Shown in pieces: positions 8,542-42,999 of a stretch of 64,000 nucleotides of DNA. The notes under the pieces were generated by a model, which did no database searches, had not been told where the DNA came from, and was given only the letters and a program-made list of their open reading frames with translations. Made by a program: the position numbers and the translations under genes. Source of the DNA: Circinella minor (Eukaryota > Mucoromycota > Mucoromycetes > Mucorales > Lichtheimiaceae); contig JAEPRB010000026.1 in the NCBI GenBank assembly GCA_016758965.1, positions 1 through 64,000 on the forward strand, given 5' to 3'. The first letter of the stretch is position 1. Each line of letters opens with the position of its first letter.

Positions 8542-10854
8542 TGTTTTTATTTAAACTTGTTGTTATTGTTATTGTTGTTGTTATAGTAACAATTATAATA
8601 ATAAAAGAAATATTGTTAAGATGTAGAAATAAAGAATAGAATGGAAGGGATGGGGGGGTATTTATATTTTTTTTTTTTTTTAGCAAAAAAACAAGTTTCG
8701 GAAGGAAATGATAATTATTGATAGGTAAAATAGTAATAATAATAATAAAAAAGTACAGAATTTACCTTTTTTAACTTCTTTGACACGGTGTATTTTCGTC
8801 ATGGGGGAGTAGAATTATATTTGGATAACATATCTGGTCAAATCGCCAGAAAAAACAGAGCCATAATAGAAAAATAACCAGGGGATCTGATTTTCTTTTC
8901 CTGGTAAGTCACGCATGAAATTTTAAGTGTGGATCAAACTTGATAAGAAAACGGAAGGGACAGAAATAATAAAAAATAATTAGCTGCGGGTGATTTTTTT
9001 TTTTTTTTTTTTTGTGTGTGAAAAGTATGAGTGAGAGAGACCCCTCTTTTTTTTAGGTGTACACAGAAAAAAAAAACTGCATCATAACATAATAATCATA
9101 AAAAAAAAACAGATAATGATACACACACACACACACACACATGGGGTCGAGTTTATCGATTAAATGGGTTGATGAATGGATATGGGAATTGATTAATATT
9201 TTTTTTTTTGTGAATTCTACAACCCTTCCTTCACATCAAGGTTTATTTTCTACAACCCCTCCCCTTTCCCTGTAATAGTTATCACCCCCCTCCCACCTCT
9301 CCAACTTTCCTTCTCTACACTCTCTATATTATTGTACTACTTTTTTTTTTTTAAGAAAGAGTTTCTCATGGATTAAGTTTTTTTTTGGTTTTCTCACGAT
9401 AGAATCCACATTATACATTACAGAAAACAGTTACTCAGGATGGGTCGTTTCACACAACACAATAGACACTTCTTCTAATCTATTCTTTTTTTTAATCTGA
9501 GTTTTTTTTTTTTATCTGTTGGGCTAAAAAAAAAAAGTTACCGAGGTAAATTTTTTATTGTGTGAAAAGAAGAAGTATCATGTTTCCGGTCAAACCGACA
9601 TTATACCCGAACGATGACTATGTTGGTCCGGTCCTAAAAATGGGAGATCTTCTTTTCAATGTGAATAACTCAAGTCCGACTCGCTTCTCCCCCCCCAAGA
9701 TATGGAGTTTTTTTTTATTTTATTTTGCTGAATAGATCATCATCGAAAAAAAAAATGTAAACTCGCGCCGCAAAAAAAAAAAAAAAAAAACCATAAGTTT
9801 TGGATAACATTAACCCCCCCCATCTAAAACTCTTCCCAAATAATAATTCTATGAAAAACCCATCCATTAATCCCTCCCACATCCATAACACTTGTATAAA
9901 CAATGATATGCAACATTATCGATTTGAAAAAATTCAAAAGTAGTAGTTATTTCCGATTTGATTATATTGTTTATTAAGGAGAATTAGTATGTCATAATCA
10001 AGATGAAATCACGATAATAATCATATATATATATATAATATATATACTAGATATGTAAATTATAATGATGTAGTTGTCGTCATATCCATCAACATATAAT
10101 CACAATCAATCATTTATATATATAGAATAAAATATTATAGTTTTTTGTGTAAAGATCACATGGATTTTACATATGGATTTCAAAATATTTGATAATAATA
10201 ATCGATAACAATAACTTTTTATGAACTACTACTTGGTACTACTTTAAATGTGAATACCCTATATTGCTTATCGATAAATCTTTTTTTTTAAAAAAAAAGG
10301 GAAATCTGGGGAAAGCATAATAATAAAAAAAAAAAAAAGCGGACTTTTTTTTTATTATTATTTACAAAAGAGTTAAACTCCAAATTTCTTATTTCTTATT
10401 TCTTTTCTTTGCATTATTGAAAAAACGTTCGGGCCCATTTTTTGTGTTACAATGGATTTTATAATTAGTTAATACTATTTTAATAAGTCAAAAATGATCG
10501 AACAACTTGAAACTACTCTTCTTTAGCTTAAAAAAAAACTATGAAGACTTATGTTTCAAAAAGAATTGAAACATTAAATAGACACAAAAAGGTCTTAAAG
10601 TTATATATTTTTTTGAGTGTATATTTTAACATAGAGCGGAGTGTTTTTATTTTTTTTTAGCGTTGATGTGGATCCATTATTATTTTTTAATAGGGAGAGA
10701 GGCTGAGTCGAGCAATAGACTCTTTTAGGTGTTTCTATCCCCTCCTCTAGAAAGAGTACCTAGAACGTTTTAGTCTGTTTTTTTTTTTATTTTATTTTAT
10801 TTTATTTTTCTTTTATTTTATCATATATTATTTATTATATTATTATTATTCGTC
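8542..10854. other. Divergent intergenic region, no gene seen
   Basis: About 2.3 kb lie between the divergently transcribed reductase and Opy2-like genes. The stretch contains many poly(A)/poly(T) runs, a (CA)n repeat at about 9121-9140, pyrimidine-rich blocks near 9225-9320 and an (AT)n tract near 10023-10046. The only open frame of note (9715-9903, minus) is built on homopolymers. Promoters of both flanking genes must lie here but I could not place elements. Confidence 0.6.
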
Positions 10855-10869
10855 ATGTCAACATCTGAT

Positions 10870-10903
<34 letters not shown>

Positions 10904-12511
10904 TCACCTGAAAATAACTTTATTTTTTATTATACATATAGTAAAAATTGCACGATTACCTACTCGATTACGACCTCAATTACTACCACAACAATTACGA
11001 CAACGAAAAAACTTGATAAAAAAACGAAATGAATGTCAACCTTCCCATTGTAAACCTCAATGTATACCTACTTGTTCTTCTTCTCAACGTTGTATATTGG
11101 ACGTGATGAAAAAATGTGGTGAATGTCCAGTTTCTCAATGTGTTAGTTTAGCTTCATTGGGTATTTCAACGACTTCGACCCATGGAGATACGAATAATAT
11201 GAATAATAACAGTATTAATAATAATGCCAATGACACAACCACTTTTGTTTCTTCAACAAATACGAGTAATAAAGATAAAACAGGCTTAATTGCTGGTTTA
11301 ACAACGGGTTTAGTTGTAGGTGCAGTTATTGTTGTAGCTATTGCTGGTTTGGTTTATTTTAAACGAAAACGACGTACTCAACAACAACTACAACAAGAAG
11401 AAGAAGAACATCAACAAGGTTTTGATAATCAAGAAAAACGATTAGAAGAACGTGTTCCTACTATTCAAAATATCAATAAATCATTAGGACCTCCTCCAGC
11501 TGCTGCTGTATTACCTGCAACTGCTACTTTACCAACAGATACAACTTTTTGGCCAAAGGTAAATTTATTAATATTTATTGGAAATATTGTATGAGGGTTT
11601 TTTTTCTTGGGGGAGGGGGGAGGGGAGAAATAGGATAAATATATTTATATATTATTATTATTATTATTTAGGAGGTAGCACCACCTTCTCCTCAATCACC
11701 TGTATTTATGGGTAATACACTTCAAATTCCTCGACTTACTACAACACCTAGTTCACCACCACCTACGAGTTCAACATTTACAACTACCATGACATCGCCT
11801 ACTACCATTCGTCAATCACTTAGTTTAATTCCATCTACTACAACATCTTTTTCTGGAATATCATCTTCATCTTCAGCATCTTCTTTTATTCGTCCACCAC
11901 CTCCAATGATGAGTCGATCTTCTTCTGTCAAATTAACAAAATATGATCATCAACGTTCAGAAATAAAACCAACTCTTTATCGTAATCATTTTAATAATGA
12001 AGAAGAAGATGATGATGATGATGAAGATGAAGGTGAAGATCGAGTTCAATTAAGAAGAGCTATTTCTGTTAATAAAAAACAAGGATTATCAAGATCAGCA
12101 TCATTAGGTTCTAAAACATTACAACGACAAAAAACAAAAGGAGAAGCCATACCTATTGTCTATGCACGACCTACTATGGTACGCATTAATACAATTACAA
12201 GAAAAGAAAATGGTATTACTAGAAAAACATCTGTTCGTACCATTATTTCAGATAATCAACGACAAGGACGAGATGAACAAGTAGAAGCAACAGAACAATT
12301 GGATACATTACAACCTTTACAACCCAATGAACGAAGATTAAGAACAGAAAGTTGGAATTCTCAACATAGTATTGCAAATAGTTCACATTCATCTATAGGT
12401 GATGGTGAAATTACTGTTTTTTGGAATTCACCACCAATCAATGATACTCATACTACTACTACTACTACTACTACTACAAGTGCCAATGTTACTACAACTT
12501 TCAACCAGTAA
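10855..12511 (+). CDS. Single-pass membrane anchor protein with Opy2-like N-terminal Cys domain
   Basis: Predicted 490 aa from exons 10855-10870, 10942-11558 and 11672-12511. The first exon is a 16-base micro-exon supplying ATG. A cysteine-rich module (pattern C-x4-C-x3-C-x3-C ... C-x2-C-P-x3-C) occupies roughly residues 36-73. It resembles the Opy2 extracellular domain of fungal HOG-pathway anchors. An S/T/N-rich stalk follows, then one hydrophobic helix (LIAGLTTGLVVGAVIVVAIA) with a KRKRR stop-transfer sequence. The cytoplasmic tail is long, low-complexity and Ser/Thr/Pro-rich, with repeated basic RSxSV/RSASLG sites that look like kinase targets. Yeast Opy2 tethers the Ste50-Ste11 module for osmosensing; a similar scaffold role is inferred, since only the Cys spacing and topology support it. 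No classical N-terminal signal peptide is seen. Confidence 0.62.
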
Positions 12512-15500
12512 TGGCCCAAACTATAATTATAATACTACTACTACTAATAATAATAATAATTACATTACATTTTTTAACCGCTCCCTTTCAACATCATATT
12601 CATTTATTCATCATTATCATTTTTTTTTTATAATAATTATCATTATCCTTTCTTCCTTGCATATATAAACATTTTAACTTCATTACTCCCCTTATTCTTT
12701 TTTCACTTTCTTATTTGATTCATTTATTCTCTTTTTCTCTTTATGTGCGCTGTTGTTGTAGATAAAGAAATAGTGTCTAGTTTATATCATTTTGTCAATA
12801 TATATATATATATATATATTATATAAATAGTTATTTGTTATTATACATAATATAAATAAATAAATAAAAAAAAGAAACATGTATTTCTCCCTTTACATGT
12901 AATATAACGTAACGTTATACTTATTTTTTTTTTCTTATTAATCATACCATAATAAGAAGTAAAGGGGGAGGAAAGAAATCTGAACCTTACAGGACAACAA
13001 CTTTATAATAACAATAAAATTGAGTAATTATTATTATATTAATTACTTTTAAACTGAACATTTTTTTTAAAAGAAAGAGATACTAAGTATGAAGTACAAA
13101 ATGTGAGGTACTGTTGCTCATGATAATCATTTATCTTAGGATCCAGATCAAATTGCTTTTTTTTTTTTACTTAATTCAAAGTTGGTTTTAATTAACCATA
13201 TTGGTCTGGGAGAGACCCTGTATATATACTTTGTGTAACTAAAAACTTGCTCTTCCTACTTCCAACCTCCCCCCCCCAATTAAAATATAGAGGGAGAGCA
13301 ATAACATAATACCATGCGTCAAAGCCAAAAAAAAAAAAAAAATTGATTTATGCTGTGACCAGTAAAATAGAAAATTCTCATCGTTAATTATTAATCTTTT
13401 ACCATCCTATAATTTCTACATTCTAAATATTTCTTTACAGAAAAAACTAATACTAAATTGTTTACGTAGATGACAATTTTTTTTTATTTTATTCAACAAA
13501 TTAAAGTTATTTAACTAATGTGGGGGAGGGGGAGGTTAATATGTGTGCTCTGATTTTTGAAAATGAATTATTTTATTTTGATTATCATAAAATACATAGG
13601 TTGATAATATGAATGATAATAAAACAAAAAAGAAACGGAAATACCCCAAAGTAGAAAAGATAGAAAAGAAAAAACTCGTGTTAAAAGTCTATCATTTTGG
13701 TACGTACTTTTAAAATCAAAAAATATCCTTGATTAAGAATAACATTATATTATCATTGATTAGAATTGATTAACACTGTATTTTCTTATTTTTGTGTACA
13801 TAGTATAAAAACTATAACTTAACTGATGATAGAATTGATAACATCCTTTTACAGAAAACTTGATTAAAAAAAAAACAATACATCATCATTATCATTATTA
13901 TTATTATTTTTTCTTAGTCATGTGAACAGACTGGGGAACTCATGCTGGTTTTTTTTTTTTACAGAAAAAGAAAAAAAAAAAAAAGATCTCAATTATTCAT
14001 TAAATTCTTTTTTTTTTTTTTTTTTTTTGCCCCATAAGAATTTAGAAATATTTTCTTCTACACCTTTTTTGTTTATTAAGATCTGTGCTCGATAGAATAA
14101 TAATGATATGCGATAATTTTGTGTGTGTGTGTGTGTGTGTGCGAATGTTTTTTTTATCTTTTTTTTTTACAAGAACGCGTATTATTCACAAATAGTAATT
14201 TGACAAACCCTATTCTTTGTTAGTTGTTATGGTAACAGACAAGGTTGTACAAAAGGAAGAATCGGAAAAAAAATTTTTGGTAAGATTAGCTGCGCAAAAA
14301 CTTCCATGGTTGCGATTAAACTTTCTGTTTTTTTTTTTTTTTATAAGAAAACAAAGATCATTTTTTAAGTTGAGAGTCGTGGTAAAAAAAAAAAAAAAAG
14401 AGTATTATTTTATGTGTACACGATACAATACTCGGGTATCTTGAAATATATAATATTTATATTATATCATAAATTATTTTCTTCCGAATAAACTCATTGA
14501 ATCTGAATCGATGCTTTTAGAATGATTTTGTATTTTATTATTATGCACCCCATGTGGATTTCAAACGAATTCTCATAAAAGTTTATTTTGTACGTACTGT
14601 ACATCGATATGACATTAAAATTTTATTTATCAATGAAATTTTTTTTTTAAATAGAATGAGTCCTTCATCGAACAATATAGTTTGTATACAAGAGCGAATA
14701 CTATTATATACAATAATTGATGAACTACGTATATAAGATAACAATTATCTAATTAGAAACAGAAGAGGAATAGTTGTCATGACAATGATATTTTATACTT
14801 TGGTTTTCAGTGTTACATTAGGGAAATAGAGTTTGTCGCGTCATGCAAAAAGCTACTTTTTTTTTTCTAATGCTATATAAAACCTTTGGAATAATAAAAA
14901 GATTTTTTGAACTTTGGGTGAACACATTTCAAAGTAATAGAACCAATTGAACAGATATCCATATATTATTTTTTCTTAATGTTATTTATTTTTGCATTGT
15001 CGACGGTTCAAGGCAAATTTAATATTCTTTCAAAAAAAAAAAAAAAAGAATACCTGCTTGTTTTTTCTTTATTATACGTATTAGTTTTGAAAACAAATAA
15101 ATAGGCTGGAATGGAGGGGATTCCTCTATAGTAAAACCTATAATAAAGTAAATGTCTCTTTTTAAAGCATGTTATAAAAGAGTAATTCAATCGAGTCAAT
15201 TGTTTTGTAAACATTTAGACATACATAAAGCATGTATTCTTAAATGACACAAGAAGAAGAACTGTGTATAAATTCGTTTAATAGAACAATATATGTTCTT
15301 GCATTTATTGTTACCATTATAAAATATAAAAATATAAAAATTCTATATGACCAATAAGAATGAATTTATTAGGCCTATTATTATTTTTTTTATCATTTAC
15401 TTATTATATTTGTTACCTATTTATTTTGCTCCGTTATTCCTTTAACGAGAAAAAAAGGGCAAAATAAAAGGAAAATCAAAGAAAGAAAAAAAAAGCTCAA

Positions 15501-16614
15501 AAGAACGCTCTTTATGTTCCCCATGAATATTTAACGTGCAATGGGAAAAAAAGGAGTAAAAAATCTCACAGACACGATGAAGAAAAAAAAAAGGGAAAAA
15601 AAGTTACCCCTTTTTATAACTTTTTTTTTTCCGTGACCGTTATCAAAATTTTGAATTTCCGTAGTGATATGACTTGTTTTTAAATTGATTTCAAATACAG
15701 AGGGCATGTGATTGTTGCCTAGCAACAAGTTTTGCATGAATAAATTATAAAGGGAATGATAAAAAAAAAAGGAAAAAGTTTTGAAATGATTAAAAAGAAG
15801 TACTTCAATCTCGTCTATACCGATTCCAAAATATTTCAATGTCACCAATGGTTTCACAAGGCAACTCCGAAAAAGCACAGACCCCCTTACTGTCACCATC
15901 CTCAGGTTTTTTTTTTTTTTTTTTTTTTGGGAAGAAAAACAAAAAAAAAAAAAAAGTTAAGAATTTATAATATTGATGATCCGTTAAAAAGAATATAAGT
16001 GAGCTTTTTTTTATGTTAGCCTATGGCCTGGATTGATTCCTATTTTATAGCTTTCCTTTACGTAGTTTTAAATATAATATAATCTTTCTTTAAAAGAGGT
16101 ACGTAGTATAAAAAGAAATAGTGTTGAAATGCATAAATGTTATAATAAGTTATTTTTGATTATGCAAAACAACAGCATCCATTACCATGAATGAAAAAAA
16201 ATCATCTCGATTATATTTTTAATTTGAAGGAATCATCTATTATTTGAATATTGGATATTTGAAAATACATTTTCACGACTTAAAATAAGATAGAATAACA
16301 AAAAAATAAAATTACGTACGTATGATATTTCTCGTTGCGTATTTTTACTACTTTTAAAATTTAATATGCAACCAGCGTATAAATAATACCTATTAGCTTT
16401 TGCTATTCTGTTTTTTTTTTTCGTATGCGTCGTATGTATAATGTAAATTATTTCTATACTACTACGAATAGTATAATTATATTATAAGATACGTACAACC
16501 ATTATCTAACTCTTACCACATTTAGAGTTTCTCAATGATTCGCCTTGCTTAAGCATATCACATAAGCTCTTTATGTGCAACATAACTATAATTACACAGT
16601 TCTCATACGATCCA

Positions 16615-16645
<31 letters not shown>

Positions 16646-16856
16646 GCCTCAAGAAGCAGTCGAGTTAATAACTGATAGTAAAGAAGTTTTTGTTTCACAT
16701 GAACTAGAAGAAATAAAAACAATAGTATACAATATTTTATATCCTAATAACATTTAATGTTTGAAATTACTATGATTCCCTCAACATTTAAATAAGAAAA
16801 TCCAATATAATTTATATATAATTTATATATTATTATTATTATTTATTGTTTTGAAA

Positions 16857-16888
<32 letters not shown>

Positions 16889-16914
16889 CGTGTGTATGTA
16901 TGGGGTATTTTTAT
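12512..16914. other. Long AT-rich intergenic region with weak coding-like remnants
   Basis: About 4.4 kb lie between the convergent 3' ends of the Opy2-like and acyltransferase genes. Simple repeats include (AT)n near 12800-12818 and (GT)n near 14121-14141. Two short plus-strand stretches have codon-like composition: about 14226-14320 (EKKFLVRLAAQKLPWLRL) and about 16650-16757, which ends in a natural stop after ELEEIKTIVYNILYPNNI. Neither connects to a longer frame, so I treat them as possible relics and not as genes. Confidence 0.45.
16859..16888. repeat. (GT)n microsatellite
   Basis: A near-perfect GT dinucleotide run lies just beyond the 3' end of the glycerol-3-phosphate acyltransferase gene. 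It is likely length-polymorphic. Confidence 0.9.
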
Positions 16915-18397
16915 TTAATTTTTTTTGTTAAACTCAATAGGTTGATCTTCTTCTTCACGATCACCAGCATATCCTTCATCCTCTACTACTCTCTTTTTTA
17001 TACCATTCACTTGTAAATTATCTGCTGAAATTTCATCATAATCTTCAATTTTAAATAAAGGTCGTTGTTTAAAATTATTATTCTCTTCTGTTGCTGTTGT
17101 AATTGATTTTGTTGTCTCTCCTATGGTTGTCATGCCTTCAACACGGAATCCATCCATATTAGCTGATGCACCAAAACTACTTGTACGACTACGAGGTTTT
17201 AAAGAAGAATCAGATTCACTTGCTGATCCGCGTCGACTTCGACTTGATGTTGGTGTCAAGCTTCCATTAAATCGTCCCAGATAAAATGAATTATCATCCA
17301 TATCGGATGATTCTTCTATACGACCCCAATTAAAGATATTCTTATCATCCAATCCCATACGAACAGCTTGTTGAAAGAATCCACTGGCAATTTTAGGTAA
17401 TTTACTTGGTGTTGCTGATGACCAATTAATAAAACTACTTGAACTTGTACGTCGAACAGGTGCTGGTCGTTTATTGAGTGATGATAGAGTTGCTGATGAT
17501 GAAGATGTAGCCGCAGTAGCTCGTGAAATGTAATCAGCTATAATTATAGTAAATGTTTCATACAATTAATCATATAAATATAAAAATGTGAGATTCATAA
17601 ATTATTTGTTGATTAACACATGTCAAATGCCGAATTTGTGGATTATCTTTTTTTTTTTTAAAAAAAAAACACACACACACACACACTTTCTCTTTCTCTT
17701 ACTTACCATCAAAATCAGTAAATACTTTGGGACCATATTCATTAATTAATTCCGTTATATCATGAGATAATTTTTCACGATTCTTTCTTAAAATTTCAGC
17801 TCCATCTGGATCTAAAATTGACATAACAAGTGGTTGTAACGACCTATAAAATCATTTTTTTTTTGTTTGTTTAACAAAAGAATAGTATAAAATCATACCA
17901 GGTTTTAAAACAATGTAATAATAATAAAAATAACTTACATGAGAATATCAAGACCAATTTCTCCAAAACGAAGACTTGCATACGATACAAATGGTAATAA
18001 TGTCCACGTAGCTAATGGAAGAATAAGTTTCCATTTAATATCCCAACTTGTTTGTAATACAACGACCAACATGATGAAACTGTAAAATGCGTATAATGCG
18101 GGTAATAAAACCAAACCAACAAGTATTTTCCATGTTGCTAAAATATCACGACCAGCAATCTTGACAGTTGAACCTTTTACAGCAGCTAATAAAATAAAAT
18201 AATATTATACATAATAGTGAAAAAGATTAATAACATGGTTTTCATCCCATTCTATTTTAATACAAATTTTTACCTTTGGCCTTTTTATGACTTATAATTT
18301 TAGCAACGATGACAACAGGAAGATTGAGAATTGCTCTAAAAAAAAAAGAAATTAATTAAATTTTTCATATTATTTCATCATTTATTTTCACACACAT

Positions 18398-31739: not shown

Positions 31740-36049
<4,310 letters not shown>

Positions 36050-36197
36050 GATTTATATGCTGAGAGATAAAAAAACATGTCAATAATTTCTCTTCTGTCC
36101 TCCTAAAATCTAAGCACTGAAGACGGAGAAATAGAAACAGCCTTATTTATCAGAAAAAATTACGTCATTAAAAAAATATAATTTACATAAAAAAAGC

Positions 36198-36338
36198 CTG
36201 AAGTCAGTGAACAGCATGAAATTTTTTCATGTTAACCAGAAATAAAAAAAAAAAAAAGTACTTACTTCACCCCAGTTATTTGATAAATGAATGCCAGCAC
36301 ATCTTTACTGGCAGTTTTAGTTTTCTTTTATGGCTACT
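36198..36338 (+). repeat. Left terminal inverted repeat of the Fanzor element
   Basis: The reverse complement of this segment matches 41293-41429 at most positions. Matching blocks include CTGAAGTCAGTGAACAGCAT, TTTTTTCATGTTAACCAGAA, TTCACCCCAGTTATTT and GAATGCCAGCACATCTTTAC. Differences are mainly in an A tract (longer on the left) and a few substitutions. Confidence 0.9.
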
Positions 36339-37332
36339 CAGTCGTAATATTGTAATAAAAGTATTTATTTATGTGTATGTATTCAAAAATGTTCAATGCA
36401 TGTTAAAAAAAATATTTTGACAAGTTATATATATACTTTGTATATACATCTTTCTGTTCGCGCGTATGTAGTATAGCTGGGATTATTCATATCGAATAAT
36501 GTGATTATAAAACCAAGCATAATATACTCAAATTGAAAAATAATTTTGTTCATACAAATAATTTGTTTTGAGATGTTCCTGCAATAATTGATTATCTTCG
36601 TTTTAAAATTACTGTGTGCATAAACAAATATTGGTGGACAAATATTTATATTATGTAAATCAAAAACCAGTTTTTAACAATTATCATGATCATCAAAATA
36701 AATACAATTAGTCAATAAAACAAACAATTTCCAACAAAATCCATTATTATTTAGTACGTAGAGATCCAGTGAACTATTAGTTATTCTTTTTACGTCGGTG
36801 CATAGTACGTACAATAAAATAAAAATTATTTCATTTATATATTTATGTTGACGACATCATTGTTACTTTATTTTTGTTTGATGTAATTGAATTGCACTTT
36901 TTCATGCTTATTTCAAGTAAATTTGTTTTGTTCTTTGTATGAGATTACAGACTATTCTTTGTGATCAAAAAAAGCCAGCTATGTTTTAGCGTTTATACCT
37001 ATTTTTTTCAGTTTAATTTTCTGCTTATACAAGCATACAATATGTTTTATTGGACCATCGAAGAATGAAATACTATGGTAAACTCAAAAAGGGAGAACCA
37101 TAGAATTCTTGAGACGCGATTGGTTGCATGTTGAATTATCGACATACAAGCAGTGCTTGTCAACAACGTTATAATTGTGATTATGCTGTAATTAAAATTG
37201 AAAAAGATTAAAGTCCTTATACTGTTATTACTACGTATGGAAAAAAAGAATAACATTTATATACGTAAAAGCAATTTATAGCCGCCACTTCCAGGTTCTT
37301 GGAATTTAGTGAACAGAAGGTTAATTTGTAAA
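36339..37332. other. Non-coding left interior of the Fanzor element
   Basis: About 1 kb of AT-rich DNA between the left inverted repeat and the Myb-like gene. The only open frame (37047-37256, minus) is short and unremarkable. It may hold the promoter of the element's genes. Confidence 0.5.
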
Positions 37333-37749
37333 ATGAGAAGCAGAATTCCTCCTTCAAATTGGCGTGAGTGTGCAAGAGCTGTTAATAACAACATTTCAAA
37401 TTGCCAACGATTTATGTTAAATTATGCGACTACGAAAAAATTATATCGTGGTCGGTGCGACGTCTAGTCAGAAGCATTACATGGTCTGTTACCCCAGGTA
37501 AAACTGTATCACCGACGAATTAGTAATAATAAACCTCTTGACCCTTTTTAATTTTTACTACAGAGAATTCAAGAAGCAAGAAGACACGGAAATTTATGGA
37601 CGAATGATGAAACTGATGTTTTGATTTCTTGCAGAACTAGAGGATATCTTTCCATCATACCAGCTCTTTTATTAGGAAGATCGGTTTCTTCTTGCTCCTC
37701 CAAATACTATCGAATTAAAAATAATATTCAATTTAAAAAGAATCAATAG
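37333..37749 (+). pseudogene. Myb/SANT-like DNA-binding protein inside the Fanzor element, interrupted
   Basis: Two exons (37333-37497 and 37564-37749) read as one frame of about 117 codons from ATG to TAG, broken by an in-frame TAG at 37465-37467 (codon 45). The second exon encodes LWTNDETDVLISCRTRG followed by a short spacer and GRSVSSCSSKYYRIK. This is the W-x(n)-E-x3-L ... GRS-x2-C-x2-Y/R pattern of a Myb/SANT or trihelix-like domain. The first exon has a basic N-terminus (IPPSNWRECARAVNN). Such a protein might bind the element ends; that is an inference. The internal TAG could be a CAG (Gln) codon changed by one C-to-T transition. No other transposon protein lies between it and the Fanzor. 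Confidence 0.55.
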
Positions 37750-38339
37750 TTTTGTATGCGTTGCCTTAAAAATTTGACGTATACCAAATGTACAGAAACG
37801 GTGATACAATTTATGTGAGAGTGATTGAAATATAATAAATCCGAGTGCTACCGAGTCTATATTAACTTATGGCCATGTGAATATTATGTTATTATTTGAA
37901 TAATTCCTTGCAATAGTATCTCTTTTATCATTTTTATTGTTAGTACGTAGAATATACGTTATTATTATTATTAAACAGTTATCAAGTAATAAATATATAA
38001 AAGTATCTCGCGTATTACTATTGATTAGCAACCGAATCAAGTAAAAGCTGTATTTATATATGTATCATAATTTGTATATGTAACATGTGCGTATAAATCA
38101 ATACTGTAGAAAAATATTCATAATATCTGTTGATAGTGACAATAACAATCAAACACTTTTCTTCTACTGTACAATTATTATATTGAATAACAACAGACAA
38201 AAAGTAGTAATCAAAATAACTCTAAATTGGGCAACGTATCAAATCGTGCTTTGCTATTATAATTTATGTTTACTGTTAACATTGCTGAAATTAATAAATA
38301 ATAACTTCCTATTATCTTTCTTTTTTTTTAATCTAATAG

Positions 38340-41294
38340 CAAATAAAATTTACAAGCAGCTTGTGGACCGATCTGATCATCTCCCGAACAATATTATTTC
38401 TATGTTTCCCGCTGCCATCCGTAACAGAGTAATAATTATTGCGCGTAAGTGTCACTTTTTTTTATTACCTAGTACTTTCTCCTATGTTATACTACTCTTT
38501 GTATTTGACGAACCTTTCTTTTCTTTTGCTTTACATCACGCAGAGGACATCATCACGCTTTTCAAACAGCGTTTGCTAATGAAAATGCCCAAAGTATCAC
38601 TGAAAGGCCAAGTAGGGTGTAACATGTAAACGTTTATCAACGATTGCCTGTATATCACATATATTTACTTAACCAATTAGGAGAAAATGGTGTAAGACGG
38701 TGGACTGTACTTCCTGTTGCTAAATATCAGGTGGCTTACATGCCAATCGATCAACGATCACTATATCGTATCTCAAAAATTTATTCGATTCAGTACCCTA
38801 ACGCCCATATGTCCCCTCCCATATCATGGTAAGCATTTTCTATTGCACATATTATTAATATTAAATATATATTTTAAACAGTATCTTCTAATATAAAAGT
38901 TTGATATATGCTATTAGTCACCTAACCCACCTAGAGGATCCCAAGACGACAACATCGATTAATTACAGTTGCTGCCTTTCGTGCACTTTCTTCTGTTCAA
39001 ATAGAACAAATATGGGAGGATATATTCAATTTGAATCATGTTATACCTCGCCGCTGTACATATTGGGAAACTGACGGCAAGTATTCTATATCTAATATAA
39101 GACCTTTTTCAATTATTTTCTTCGAAGCGTAGCAAAAACTAATGAATAGCATGATTGTTCTTTTTAAGTTATAGAAGCCGCTATGTTTCCATCTCAACGT
39201 CGTGAACGGTATTTGTTCAGCAATTATATTGGAACTGATGGTGGTGGGGTGTCATTGACGTTCAGAAGACCAATTTCAACTATCCGTGGCGGTAAATATA
39301 CTGTTTATTACTACATTATTTTGATGTTGTACCACAATGTGTTTACATCCCATTATTTTTTTCAACTTTAATCGAATATGATTTCAAGCAATTGCCACAG
39401 TCCTCCAGAGAAATTATAATATATCCTCCTGATCAATACCTGACAGCATGGCGACGCGGGATGCATCATCTTTCCAAAATTCCCCAAGGATTAACTCAAC
39501 AACGCGCCTCTGACTCTCGCTTAGTATATATTGATCCAGGTACAGTAATAAAAGTGTTTATTGTTACATTGCTATTATTGTGCTTTACCAAAGAGCAAAT
39601 GTGTACTTGCTGTTATTTAAAAATGATCTATACTAATAAAACAAATAGGCATTCGTTCTTTCCTTGGTCACTGCTGTGGATACGCTGGATGCGCTGGAAA
39701 CAGATCATTAGCGCGAACAGCACGCAATAAAGTTGCATAACGGACAGTATCAGTATGTGTTATTTTTTATGTAGTAATAGTAACTAAAACATTAATATAT
39801 TATAATTGACATACATTGATTGCGTATAATATAAATATTTAACATATCATATAATAGAGTCCAATCTTTATCCAAGTGGTCGCAATACAGAGAGCTTGAA
39901 AACCGACGTCAATACGTCGCTGAAGAAACATTACATGGTCGAGAAGCCACCGACTTACATCTGCTTTACCATATGAGGGGATTTGTCCCAGCAACAGTGA
40001 CTACATCTGGAAATTTTATTCAATACATTCGTATGATAGGTGAATTTCATACAGAGTGAGTAGTTTTTTTTTAAAAAAAAAAGTCTATATTGCACGCAAC
40101 ACTTCATAATAGCTAACATTCTTTAATATAGAATATATGAAAACTTTAATTTTCATTACCGCCATCGTGAGATACGTATGCGATATTTCGGAGCACATCG
40201 TAGTGCCTTGAAAATGTCAGTCAACTTACTAATTGGTGTGGATGAACAAAACGATCTATGTATATCATACAGCCACAACTTCCGCCTCAACTCCCTACCT
40301 TTTTCAGACATTCAAAAAAAGAACGTAAAAATCATCGACGAGCAGTTCGTCGAGAACGACGACGACAACCTGGATATGTGCCACCCTTACCGACCATTAT
40401 TGCTTATGGTGACGGTAGGCTTAGACCAAGTATGAGAGGTTATGAACCTACTCTAGTAGAAGTATGTGTTTATTTATATACATTAAAGCATCATATCATA
40501 CAAATTCAGGATTTTTTTTTTATTATTATATAGACATTTCGTGCAGTGTTGGCACGTCGGACTTTAGTTATATTAACTAACGAGTCTTACACAAGTATTA
40601 TGTGTTCTGTATGCCATAATCGTACTGTATCTTTAGTTCATCAAATAGAGATATGTGGATATGTACAAACCATCGGTAAGATAAATCATATTAATTATTT
40701 TTCTTTTTATTCAAGTGAGAAACTAACTCTATTCTTAAAATATAGAAAACAAAAAAAATAAGAAGAACTACTATACTGGAAATAACAGAAAGGGAAGAAA
40801 GATACTTTGGTGGTGTGATGAAGAAAATAATCCATTAACACGTACATCACATTGTCCTGATCGCGTGCGTGCTGGTTTGTATCGTTTCCAACTTGATGAT
40901 TTTTGAAAAAAAAAAAATTACGCTACTATTAAATATTTTGAAAACTAAATTATCATACTTTCTATTCTCTTTTTAAAATAATAATAATATTGTATCATAT
41001 ATAGCTGGTTATAGACGTAATGTATATCTATACTGATGGTGTCGACATTGTGAACAAGGAATTGACGAGAATGGTGAAAATGTATTAGGTCGTGTAATAG
41101 ATAGGGATCTTAACGCTGCAAACAATATTGGACGAGTATTTACAGCTTATATCAATAGCAATGGTGATCCTGACTGAAGACCATTATACCTTCGACGTCC
41201 TGCTAATCAAAACCAACATATTGATGCACAAATGCAAGAAGAAGAAATACTGGAAGGATTACATGAAGGACAAGGAGCACAGGGTGGTGAATAG
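38340..41294 (+). pseudogene. Fanzor (eukaryotic TnpB-family, RNA-guided nuclease), decayed
   Basis: About ten exons can be traced. Early blocks carry RRWTVLPVAKYQVAYM (38696-38743) and FSNYIGTDGGGVSLTF (39217-39264), both typical of Fanzors before RuvC-I. RuvC-I is split by an intron: VYIDPG (ends 39540) joined to GIRSFLGHCC (from 39649). Near 40403 comes TIIAYGDGRLRPSMRG, then after an intron TNESYTSIMCSVC (first CxxC of the zinc finger), a second CxxC (CRHC, about 41042) and RuvC-III RVIDRDLNAANNIGR (about 41092-41136). The frame ends at TAG 41292-41294, at the edge of the right inverted repeat. In-frame stops occur at 38620-38622 (TAA), 39738-39740 (TAA), 41034-41036 (TGA) and 41175-41177 (TGA). 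There are probable frame shifts near 39390 and 40240-40270. N-terminal exons before 38340 are unresolved. One intron starts with a GC donor (39077). Family call is strong; activity of this copy is very unlikely. Confidence 0.87.
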
Positions 41295-41429
41295 TAGCTA
41301 TAAAAGAAAACTAAAACTGCCAGTAAAGATGTGCTGGCATTCATGTATTAAATAACTGGGGTGAAGTAGGTACTTTTTCTTTTATTTCTGGTTAACATGA
41401 AAAAATTCCATGCTGTTCACTGACTTCAG
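41293..41429 (-). repeat. Right terminal inverted repeat of the Fanzor element; candidate guide-RNA region
   Basis: Inverted copy of 36198-36338. It begins at the Fanzor stop codon. In TnpB and Fanzor systems the omega RNA is transcribed from the region at and beyond the nuclease 3' end, out to the element boundary, so this segment is the natural candidate. No RNA structure was computed. Confidence 0.85.
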
Positions 41430-41452
41430 TTTTTTTTTTCTGATAAATAAAG

Positions 41453-42999
41453 AACTCCACATATTCCACTGTCTTTTGCTAAGCAGGTTAAAAAAAAAAA
41501 AAAGAAAGAGTCGCACTACTCAATGAGTTTACTCGAACATATTTTTTGACTCATATAAAAAAAGATTGGCTATTATAAGAATAACATATAACGTGGTTCT
41601 CACATGTTTTTCAATACTGTATTCTTTCTCTTTTATTTTTCTCTATATTATATAATTTATAAGATGATGATGCAATATGAATTAGAAACGAAAACCTGGA
41701 ATCATCTTCTTTAAATATAACCGGGGGACGGACTTCCGGTTAAATTTCACTCATAAAATGTCCGTGCAGAAAGACACAAAACGTTTAGCCTAACACATGT
41801 AATCAAAGTTTCTTCTTTCTTTTGTCTTTTTGTGCTCCCATTACGTCGTGCCTTATTGTACTACCATACCATTAGTTTTCAACTTCTTCATCATTGGTCC
41901 GGAGAAGAATATCCGGTGTTGCACTGCGTAACTAAAAGTGGGGTCAATGATCGTCGTCGAAGCTCATGGATTATTTCAATTTTTATCACATGTATACACC
42001 TCTTTAACTTATACGTCAACCTTCATCATATTAAGAAACTATATGTAAAATATCAATACAAAGCAATTGAAACCAAAAAACCTGGGGTAAAAAGGAACGA
42101 TCTACATTGTTAAATTAACTCAAAAGAAACGAAATTTCTAAGATAAACATTTTTCCTAGCCCGAAAATTACCGGTTCATGGTCCCCCAAGTTTGGAAACA
42201 CAGATTTTTATTTTATTTTATTTTCGTTACTTATTATTGATTGAGATAAGAACGCGTTCACAATTTATGTAAAAAAACTGGTTCACCCGGATGAGTTAGT
42301 AATAACAACAATAACAATGGCTTCTAATACTCTATTAGTCCAATTGATATGGTCACAAGGAACAATTACAGAGATTATTTCTCTTTGGATTTCCGTATAA
42401 TAAGAGTCATACGGAAAGTGATTATCGGAATCGAACAATGTTAAATAAGGAGAACATAAAGGAATAAAAAAAATTTTTATAAAAACATTTTTCAGCAAGT
42501 AAAACCTACGACTATTTAGATCCATTCTTCAAGTTAAGACCTCAAGAATTAGAATGAGGTTAGGAATTTATCTAAAGTAAAACCATTAACTTGCTATTCA
42601 ACTAAGAATTTTTCTATTATATATAAAAATTCCCTTTGATTCTTTATTATAAAGAAGCAACAGCTCTCTCTTTTCTTTTCAACCCTTTCTCCGCAACATC
42701 AACCGACTAATTTTTTTTTTCTACAAAGTCAGCAAAGTAATACCTTTTATCTTACATCCCATTTCTACATATTTTTTTTCTCTTTTCTTTCTCTTCTTCT
42801 TCTCTTCAGGTCTTCCTTTTCTTCTTTAAACCCACCCCTCTCTTCCAACAAAAAAAAAAAACTTTTTTGAAAAAAGAAAAGACGCGTTTATTTTTTATTC
42901 GCTTTTCTTTTTCATTTTTATAAAAAAAAAACAACCTCCCCACTCTTTGTTAACTTTTTAATTTTTACTTTTAATTTTTTTTTTTTTTTGGTGGCTTCT
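41453..42999. other. Intergenic region, possible weak relics
   Basis: The right end is pyrimidine-rich leader of the gene at 43000. Minus-strand 42465-42283 has codon-like composition (YYTEIQREIISVIVPCDHIN) but no start or junction I can support. Nothing else stands out. Confidence 0.45.

Follow-up and report, generated by a model that had tools for sequence, protein, structure and literature searches.

Fanzor1 families have been reported from Rhizopus (4), Phycomyces (3) and Mucor (10) (Bao and Jurka 2013, PMC3627910). Three of them, ROr-4, PBl-3 and MCi-4 (from Rhizopus, Phycomyces and Mucor, respectively), are described there as MuDr-type Fanzor1 elements that have MuDR-like ends and 9-bp duplications and lack a MuDR transposase of their own, so that such elements have been known in Mucorales since 2013; for the SPu-1 element, the same paper gives one ORF and putative TA duplications (PMC3627910). 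Fanzors have been described by a DPG motif together with a Glu lying six residues ahead of the zinc finger (PMC10711439). In SpuFz1, the metal-coordinating residues are D383, E541 and D606, and published Fanzors take their guide RNA from a region at or past the 3′ end of the gene (PMC10432273).

The stretch of DNA that we analyzed, referred to as the window, comprises 64,000 nucleotides of the Mucoralean fungus Circinella minor (G000:C26:1-64000; assembly of 46.6 Mb in 619 contigs), and very probably contains a dead copy of a Fanzor1-carrying non-autonomous MULE (MuDR-superfamily) transposon. This reading has direct support in the anatomy of the locus, its homology, its catalytic pattern, the left end shared with a MULE, the ~10-bp duplications, past purifying selection and decay. 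The element is a further member of the MuDr-type Fanzor1 group described in PMC3627910, and extends MULE-borne Fanzor1 by a member from Lichtheimiaceae. Compared by description, its family resembles ROr-4, PBl-3 and MCi-4 in being a Fanzor1 of Mucorales in a MULE-type element, and differs from them in its ~10-bp duplications, its weak right-end repeat and its Myb-type gene; neither Myb nor SANT occurs in the main text of PMC3627910. Unlike SPu-1 as described there, the family has many exons and is a MULE-type element.

The element unit occupies approximately 36143-41456 and combines the Myb-type gene with a Fanzor1 pseudogene, as follows (exons are hand-spliced and their ends approximate):

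36143-36338, minus strand: inverted copy of the element's right end, in place of the usual left end (rearranged); from repeats and other copies
37042-37749, plus strand: decayed second gene with three Myb/SANT-like stretches; from tblastn with the gene of another copy, L025
38223-38227, no strand: junction of a ~2.3-kb loss that removed six N-terminal Fanzor exons and the start codon; from comparison with L025
38340-41294, plus strand: Fanzor1 pseudogene, exons E1-E11; from splice sites and frames, and by-eye comparison with gene models P0001 and P0002
38340-38444, 38544-38828, 38918-39076, 39175-39291, 39389-39539 and 39649-39752: exons E1-E6
39858-40055, 40132-40461, 40534-40675, 40746-40907 and 41005-41294: exons E7-E11
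39530-39541, plus strand: RuvC-I IDPG with the predicted catalytic Asp; from translation, core alignment and motif scan
40408-40416, plus strand: GDG of the IAYGDG block, the site of the canonical RuvC-II Glu in TnpB; from translation and core alignment
40582-40584, plus strand: predicted alternative RuvC-II Glu in NESYTSIMC; from alignments and motif scan
40603-40614, plus strand: first zinc-finger CxxC (CSVC); from translation, core alignment and the PF07282 match of the exon
41040-41051, plus strand: second zinc-finger CxxC, past a long insert; from translation and core alignment
41103-41108, plus strand: RuvC-III Arg-Asp of RDLNAANNI; from translation, core alignment and motif scan
41295-41456, plus strand: 3′ untranslated region and element right end, with terminus ...CTGATAAATAAAGAACT; from other copies

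Three-frame translation of 38200-41360 recovered IDPG, GDG, the Glu, both CxxC pairs and RD in this order, all on the plus strand, which bears out the block series that an earlier note had read from the same sequence. The motif set IDPG...E..[TS]S..C..C...C..C...RD occurs once on the plus strand of the window and not on its minus strand, and the same ordered set appeared in 0 of 300 dinucleotide-simulated 64-kb sequences (plus strand only), a control that is post hoc because the pattern was composed from the window sequence itself. In addition, the 409-residue hand-spliced read-through satisfies the published Fanzor1 signature D-X(125,275)-[TS][TS]-X-X-C4 finger-X(5,50)-RD (PMC3627910) through D50, T271-S272, C275/C278/C365/C368 and R386-D387.

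The profile search that the earlier note had proposed was also run. The zinc-ribbon profile PF07282 matched the spliced read-through with E 8.6e-5 and 23.1 bits, under the curated cut-off of 26.3, and matched the NESYTS exon alone with E 1.4e-4, again under the cut-off. P0001, a relative from Circinella umbellata with 57% identity across 90% of the query, clears the cut-off with 30.6 bits; the RuvC-I and GDG blocks are missing from its gene model, which therefore probably also derives from a damaged copy. A second database model, P0002 (INT45_007321, Circinella minor), corresponds by eye to the translation of L025 on contig C153, save for exons that the P0002 model skips. The window sequence alone retrieved no PDB chain at E<=10, and a profile built from four cores (the window, the C. 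minor genes on contigs C441 and C22 presented below, and the metagenome protein P0003) matched PpFz1 (E 8.5e-6, profile positions 179-362) and SpuFz1 (E 1.8e-4). PpFz1, from Parasitella parasitica (PDB 9cf0; PMC11423790), is a Mucoralean Fanzor1 like the window protein and the top solved-structure match of the profile; the window protein differs from it by the long insert between its two CxxC pairs. The NCBIfam TnpB models gave no match to the window read-through, P0001 or the C22 exon, and matches under their cut-offs to C441 and P0003. With hhalign, the read-through aligned to an alignment of two Fanzor-like cores (A4) over the GDG-to-CxxC block, with a probability of 14.7% and E 0.0018. An AlphaFold prediction of P0001 from a two-row alignment gave pLDDT 32.5 and no usable structure, and two scans of viral contigs for relatives returned 13 and 377 pattern matches, none upheld by tblastn.

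The sub-threshold Pfam score of the window, its hand-chosen exons and the weak hhalign alignment could be explained if the series had arisen by chance, or if hand-splicing had given a different zinc-ribbon protein the look of a Fanzor. We consider this scarcely credible, as it is contradicted by the 0/300 simulations (with a post hoc pattern), by database gene models that use the same frames and by the profile match to solved Fanzors. Motif order and the match to PpFz1 and SpuFz1 thus identify the window gene, at the level of sequence, as a decayed Fanzor1, a eukaryotic TnpB, as the earlier note had proposed.

Alignment of the four cores (window, C441, C22 and P0003) showed 24 invariant columns, which include D50 and G52 (IDPG), G234 and G236 (GDG), E268, S272, both CxxC pairs and R386-D387. 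The window has the RuvC-I DPG, its IAYGDG block is devoid of Glu at the canonical position, and its E-SYTSIM-C spacing places a Glu six residues ahead of the zinc finger. This Glu aligns with that of the C441 Fanzor1, which itself aligns with E541 of SpuFz1; the C441-SpuFz1 alignment is weak (E 0.015), and pairs C441 with D383, E541 and D606 once the tag offset is subtracted. Like the Spizellomyces SpuFz1 (PDB 8gkh), the window thus displays DP at RuvC-I, a Glu six residues ahead of CxxC and RD at RuvC-III. Because of the alignment to E541 and the spacing given in PMC10711439, the suggestion that the NESYT Glu is the alternative catalytic Glu stands, and is supported as a prediction.

The copy of Fanzor1 in the window is dead. 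Its reading frame is interrupted by four in-frame stops (TAA 38620, TAA 39738, TGA 41034 and TGA 41175) and by a frameshift near 38935, and its N-terminal exons are deleted: L025:3007-5329 (~2.3 kb) sits between two parts that match the window, and is absent from the window. The several stops already pointed out thus represent part of the damage. A DNA search of the genome gave at least 24 matches on at least 13 contigs, including the window, and counting one contig as one locus we examined 13 loci. None of the 13 has the complete set of 18 exon pieces. In L025, the first 11 pieces (N1-E5) contain no stop in the compared codons, and in L026 the same holds for the last five (E8a-E11), so that each of these copies keeps a different portion of the gene open. 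On G000:C18, near a Fanzor fragment, units of 122 bases with 98-99% identity follow one another in tandem (L036:4608-5422).

In all 35 pairs of copies with at least 90 shared codons, dN/dS ranged from 0.17 to 0.75, which fits a Fanzor1 protein that would have been under purifying selection before its decay; since introns are about as similar as exons among the five copies compared, this signal lies in codon positions alone. Values below 1 among copies, together with the length and many exons of the gene, are also what one would expect if a domesticated host gene, rather than a mobile element, had later decayed. Such an origin is very unlikely, being contradicted by 13 scattered and variously truncated loci, common ends and target duplications. 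The mobile element is thus the reading that we retain, and its ends are considered below.

The right end is found in 9 of the 13 loci and the left end in 5 of them. In the window, inverted-repeat arms are visible at 36189-36338 and 41293-41438, and we considered these long end repeats as the element's own terminal repeats. This possibility was rejected, as other copies reveal a later rearrangement: those in L025, L026 and L035 go on beyond the point matching window position 36340 and reach another left end, which in the five other loci reads GAAC[GT]ACCTTAAACA..., unlike that of the window. On the right, the CCA that follows the terminus CTGATAAATAAAGAACT is part of the target duplication in other copies. 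An alanyl-tRNA synthetase gene adjoins the element (window 34081-34641, minus strand; PF01411, E 8.6e-32); by eye, its start may fall near the element's left edge, and the stretch tried there carried stops.

The left end recurs in opposite orientations at C477:9117 and C477:17137, delimiting an element of ~8 kb (G000:C477:about 9108-17137; L055, L048) that is flanked on both sides by the 10-bp TTATGTTCAT. Between the two left-end copies lies a MULE transposase domain, one of the 30 PF10551 matches in the genome, along with a weak SWIM match (E 0.0031, under the cut-off). Target duplications of MULEs measure about 9-10 bp. For the Fanzor element, four pairs of flanks match over 9-11 bp. In one pair both flanks lie on the same contig, with CCACAGAAAG bordering the C3 copy at left and right; the other three pairs link different contigs: CCATCAATGTG (C203 left, C264 right), CCAAACGGCA (C153 left, C102 right) and CCACTGTCC (C102 left, C166 right). 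Three loci (L026, L030 and L031) carry both ends on the same contig, and of these only L031 has matching flanks of its own; those of L026 match flanks on other contigs and those of L030 match none. For the C45 copy, which has both ends, no matching flanks were found. The end of the C477 MULE is also common to the Fanzor element and to short element-like copies (e.g., C100 and C250).

By eye, the right end resembles the MULE repeat weakly, and left and right ends differ from one another, with weak subterminal similarity. The lack of clear inverted repeats between the ends and the poor match of the right one to the MULE repeat leave some room for a transposon of another class (Crypton-, Helitron- or IS607-like), the MULE-like left end then being a separate nested MULE fragment alongside; MCi-2 elements of Mucor indeed have 11-12 bp duplications and no recognizable terminal repeats (PMC3627910). 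We hold this to be improbable, because the left end is present at 5 of the 13 loci and the matching 9-11 bp flanks, in four cases, join left and right ends, implying that both moved as one unit, and because the size of these flanks agrees with that of the C477 MULE (10 bp). From the left end shared with the C477 MULE and the ~10-bp duplications, the element is thus classified as a non-autonomous MULE (MuDR-superfamily) carrying Fanzor1.

Searches of the genome with the element ends returned 20 left-end and 14 right-end matches, some outside the 13 contigs. Among near-identical copies, two left ends lie next to contig limits (C203, 18 bases from the end; C171, 18 bases from the start) and three right ends run up to them (C159 at its last base, C166 and C264 at their first bases). 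Since CCATCAATGTG is common to the left flank of C203 and the right flank of C264, one insertion spans the gap between these contigs. C203, C264, C102, C166, C159 and C171 all end inside element copies, and flanks of these and of L025/L026 match across contigs. At young copies of the element the assembly is either interrupted or misjoined, and the cross matches of C102 suggest either a wrong joining of copies in the assembly or recombination between copies. As to the related intact copies that the earlier note thought might exist, related copies lie on at least 13 contigs and a complete gene at none of the 13 loci examined; as near-identical copies stop at contig ends, young copies have escaped assembly, and an intact one may be among them.

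The Myb-type gene was seen in the window, in C153, in C102 and partly in C33 among the fetched loci. Its joined stretches from L025 match PF13921 with E 1.8e-8, the first stretch giving the best match; our likeliest guess is that the protein has a putative role in binding DNA at the element. In its living form, the element would have had MULE-type ends enclosing this gene together with a Fanzor1 gene of many exons. We infer, from the left end shared with the C477 MULE, that a MULE transposase would move the element in trans; as the MULE that bears this end, and encodes a transposase domain, sits in the genome as well, the question of a helper becomes testable. Guided cutting of the empty site by TnpB favors retention or copying of its element. 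By the same logic the Fanzor, guided by RNA read from the right end, may cut the emptied or allelic site, repair would then copy the element back into it, and the Myb-type protein would bind the element's DNA. The window copy is now incapable of mobilization in trans, guided cutting or Myb DNA binding.

Several approaches were applied to the guide RNA. An Rfam scan of the window gave no match at the gathering threshold. The 3′ region of the element showed 0 covarying (compensatory) pairs of 38 and no excess stability of folding over shuffles (z -0.22), and its conservation (0.928) is not higher than that of introns (0.894, 0.923 and 0.932). As introns are equally conserved, we dropped conservation of this region as an argument for a guide RNA. 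With no covariation, stability or excess conservation in the 3′ region, it is from the family that we infer a putative guide RNA read from the element's right end.

A wider gain of this analysis is that it points to two other Fanzor-like genes in the genome. A genome search with PF07282 gave two matches, on C441 and C102. The C441 gene (L003, minus strand, about 3480-846) is a different Fanzor1 and apparently intact: its exons read through, with IDPG, DEFKTSRICNIC and RD. Its N-terminus has zinc-knuckle-like stretches with a weak match, and each of two C441 exon queries matched the C441 place only in the genome.

The C102 match led to similar stretches of 7.9 kb at C102 and C22. The C22 gene (G000:C22, L040:2224-7557, plus strand) is open over 1,668 codons in four exons. 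Its C-terminus contains DLG, a candidate alternative Glu (IDEYCSSKLCCHC) and the RuvC-III RD, and scores 20.8 bits with PF07282, under the cut-off. For its N-terminus, the match to XPG_I is weak (E 0.0025, 18.6 bits, cut-off 24.9) and no PDB chain matched by sequence; this part contains APYE and SSDSDLL, which we take to be XPG-like signature stretches. The third exon is a single open frame from the XPG_I match into the region matching P0003 (E 8e-29), and P0003 (1,493 residues), which shares the C22 middle and RuvC parts and has no XPG part, continues as a single protein into the RuvC core; the fusion therefore does not depend on splicing alone. C22 could tentatively be a two-nuclease relative of Fanzor, in which an XPG/FEN1-like nuclease is joined to a Fanzor-like RuvC core, although we regard this as the less probable outcome. 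If it holds, the two parts would share the work, RuvC nicking or cutting at a guided R-loop and XPG trimming the flap. A literature search on XPG/FEN1 with TnpB/Fanzor gave no title on such a fusion among the matches listed, and the main text of neither PMC3627910 nor PMC11423790 mentions XPG.

The second copy of this gene, at C102 (L004/L037), is decayed, with four stops in the aligned codons, and a protein search with its read-through gave no matches. Its RuvC-I Asp is changed to Asn, and we considered whether it represents a nuclease-dead Fanzor; this was rejected, as the C22 copy keeps the Asp and the change in C102 is thus decay. When the two copies are compared, the XPG part has a dN/dS of 0.36 and the RuvC part one of 0.54, and the copies have different right neighbors beyond a sharp boundary.
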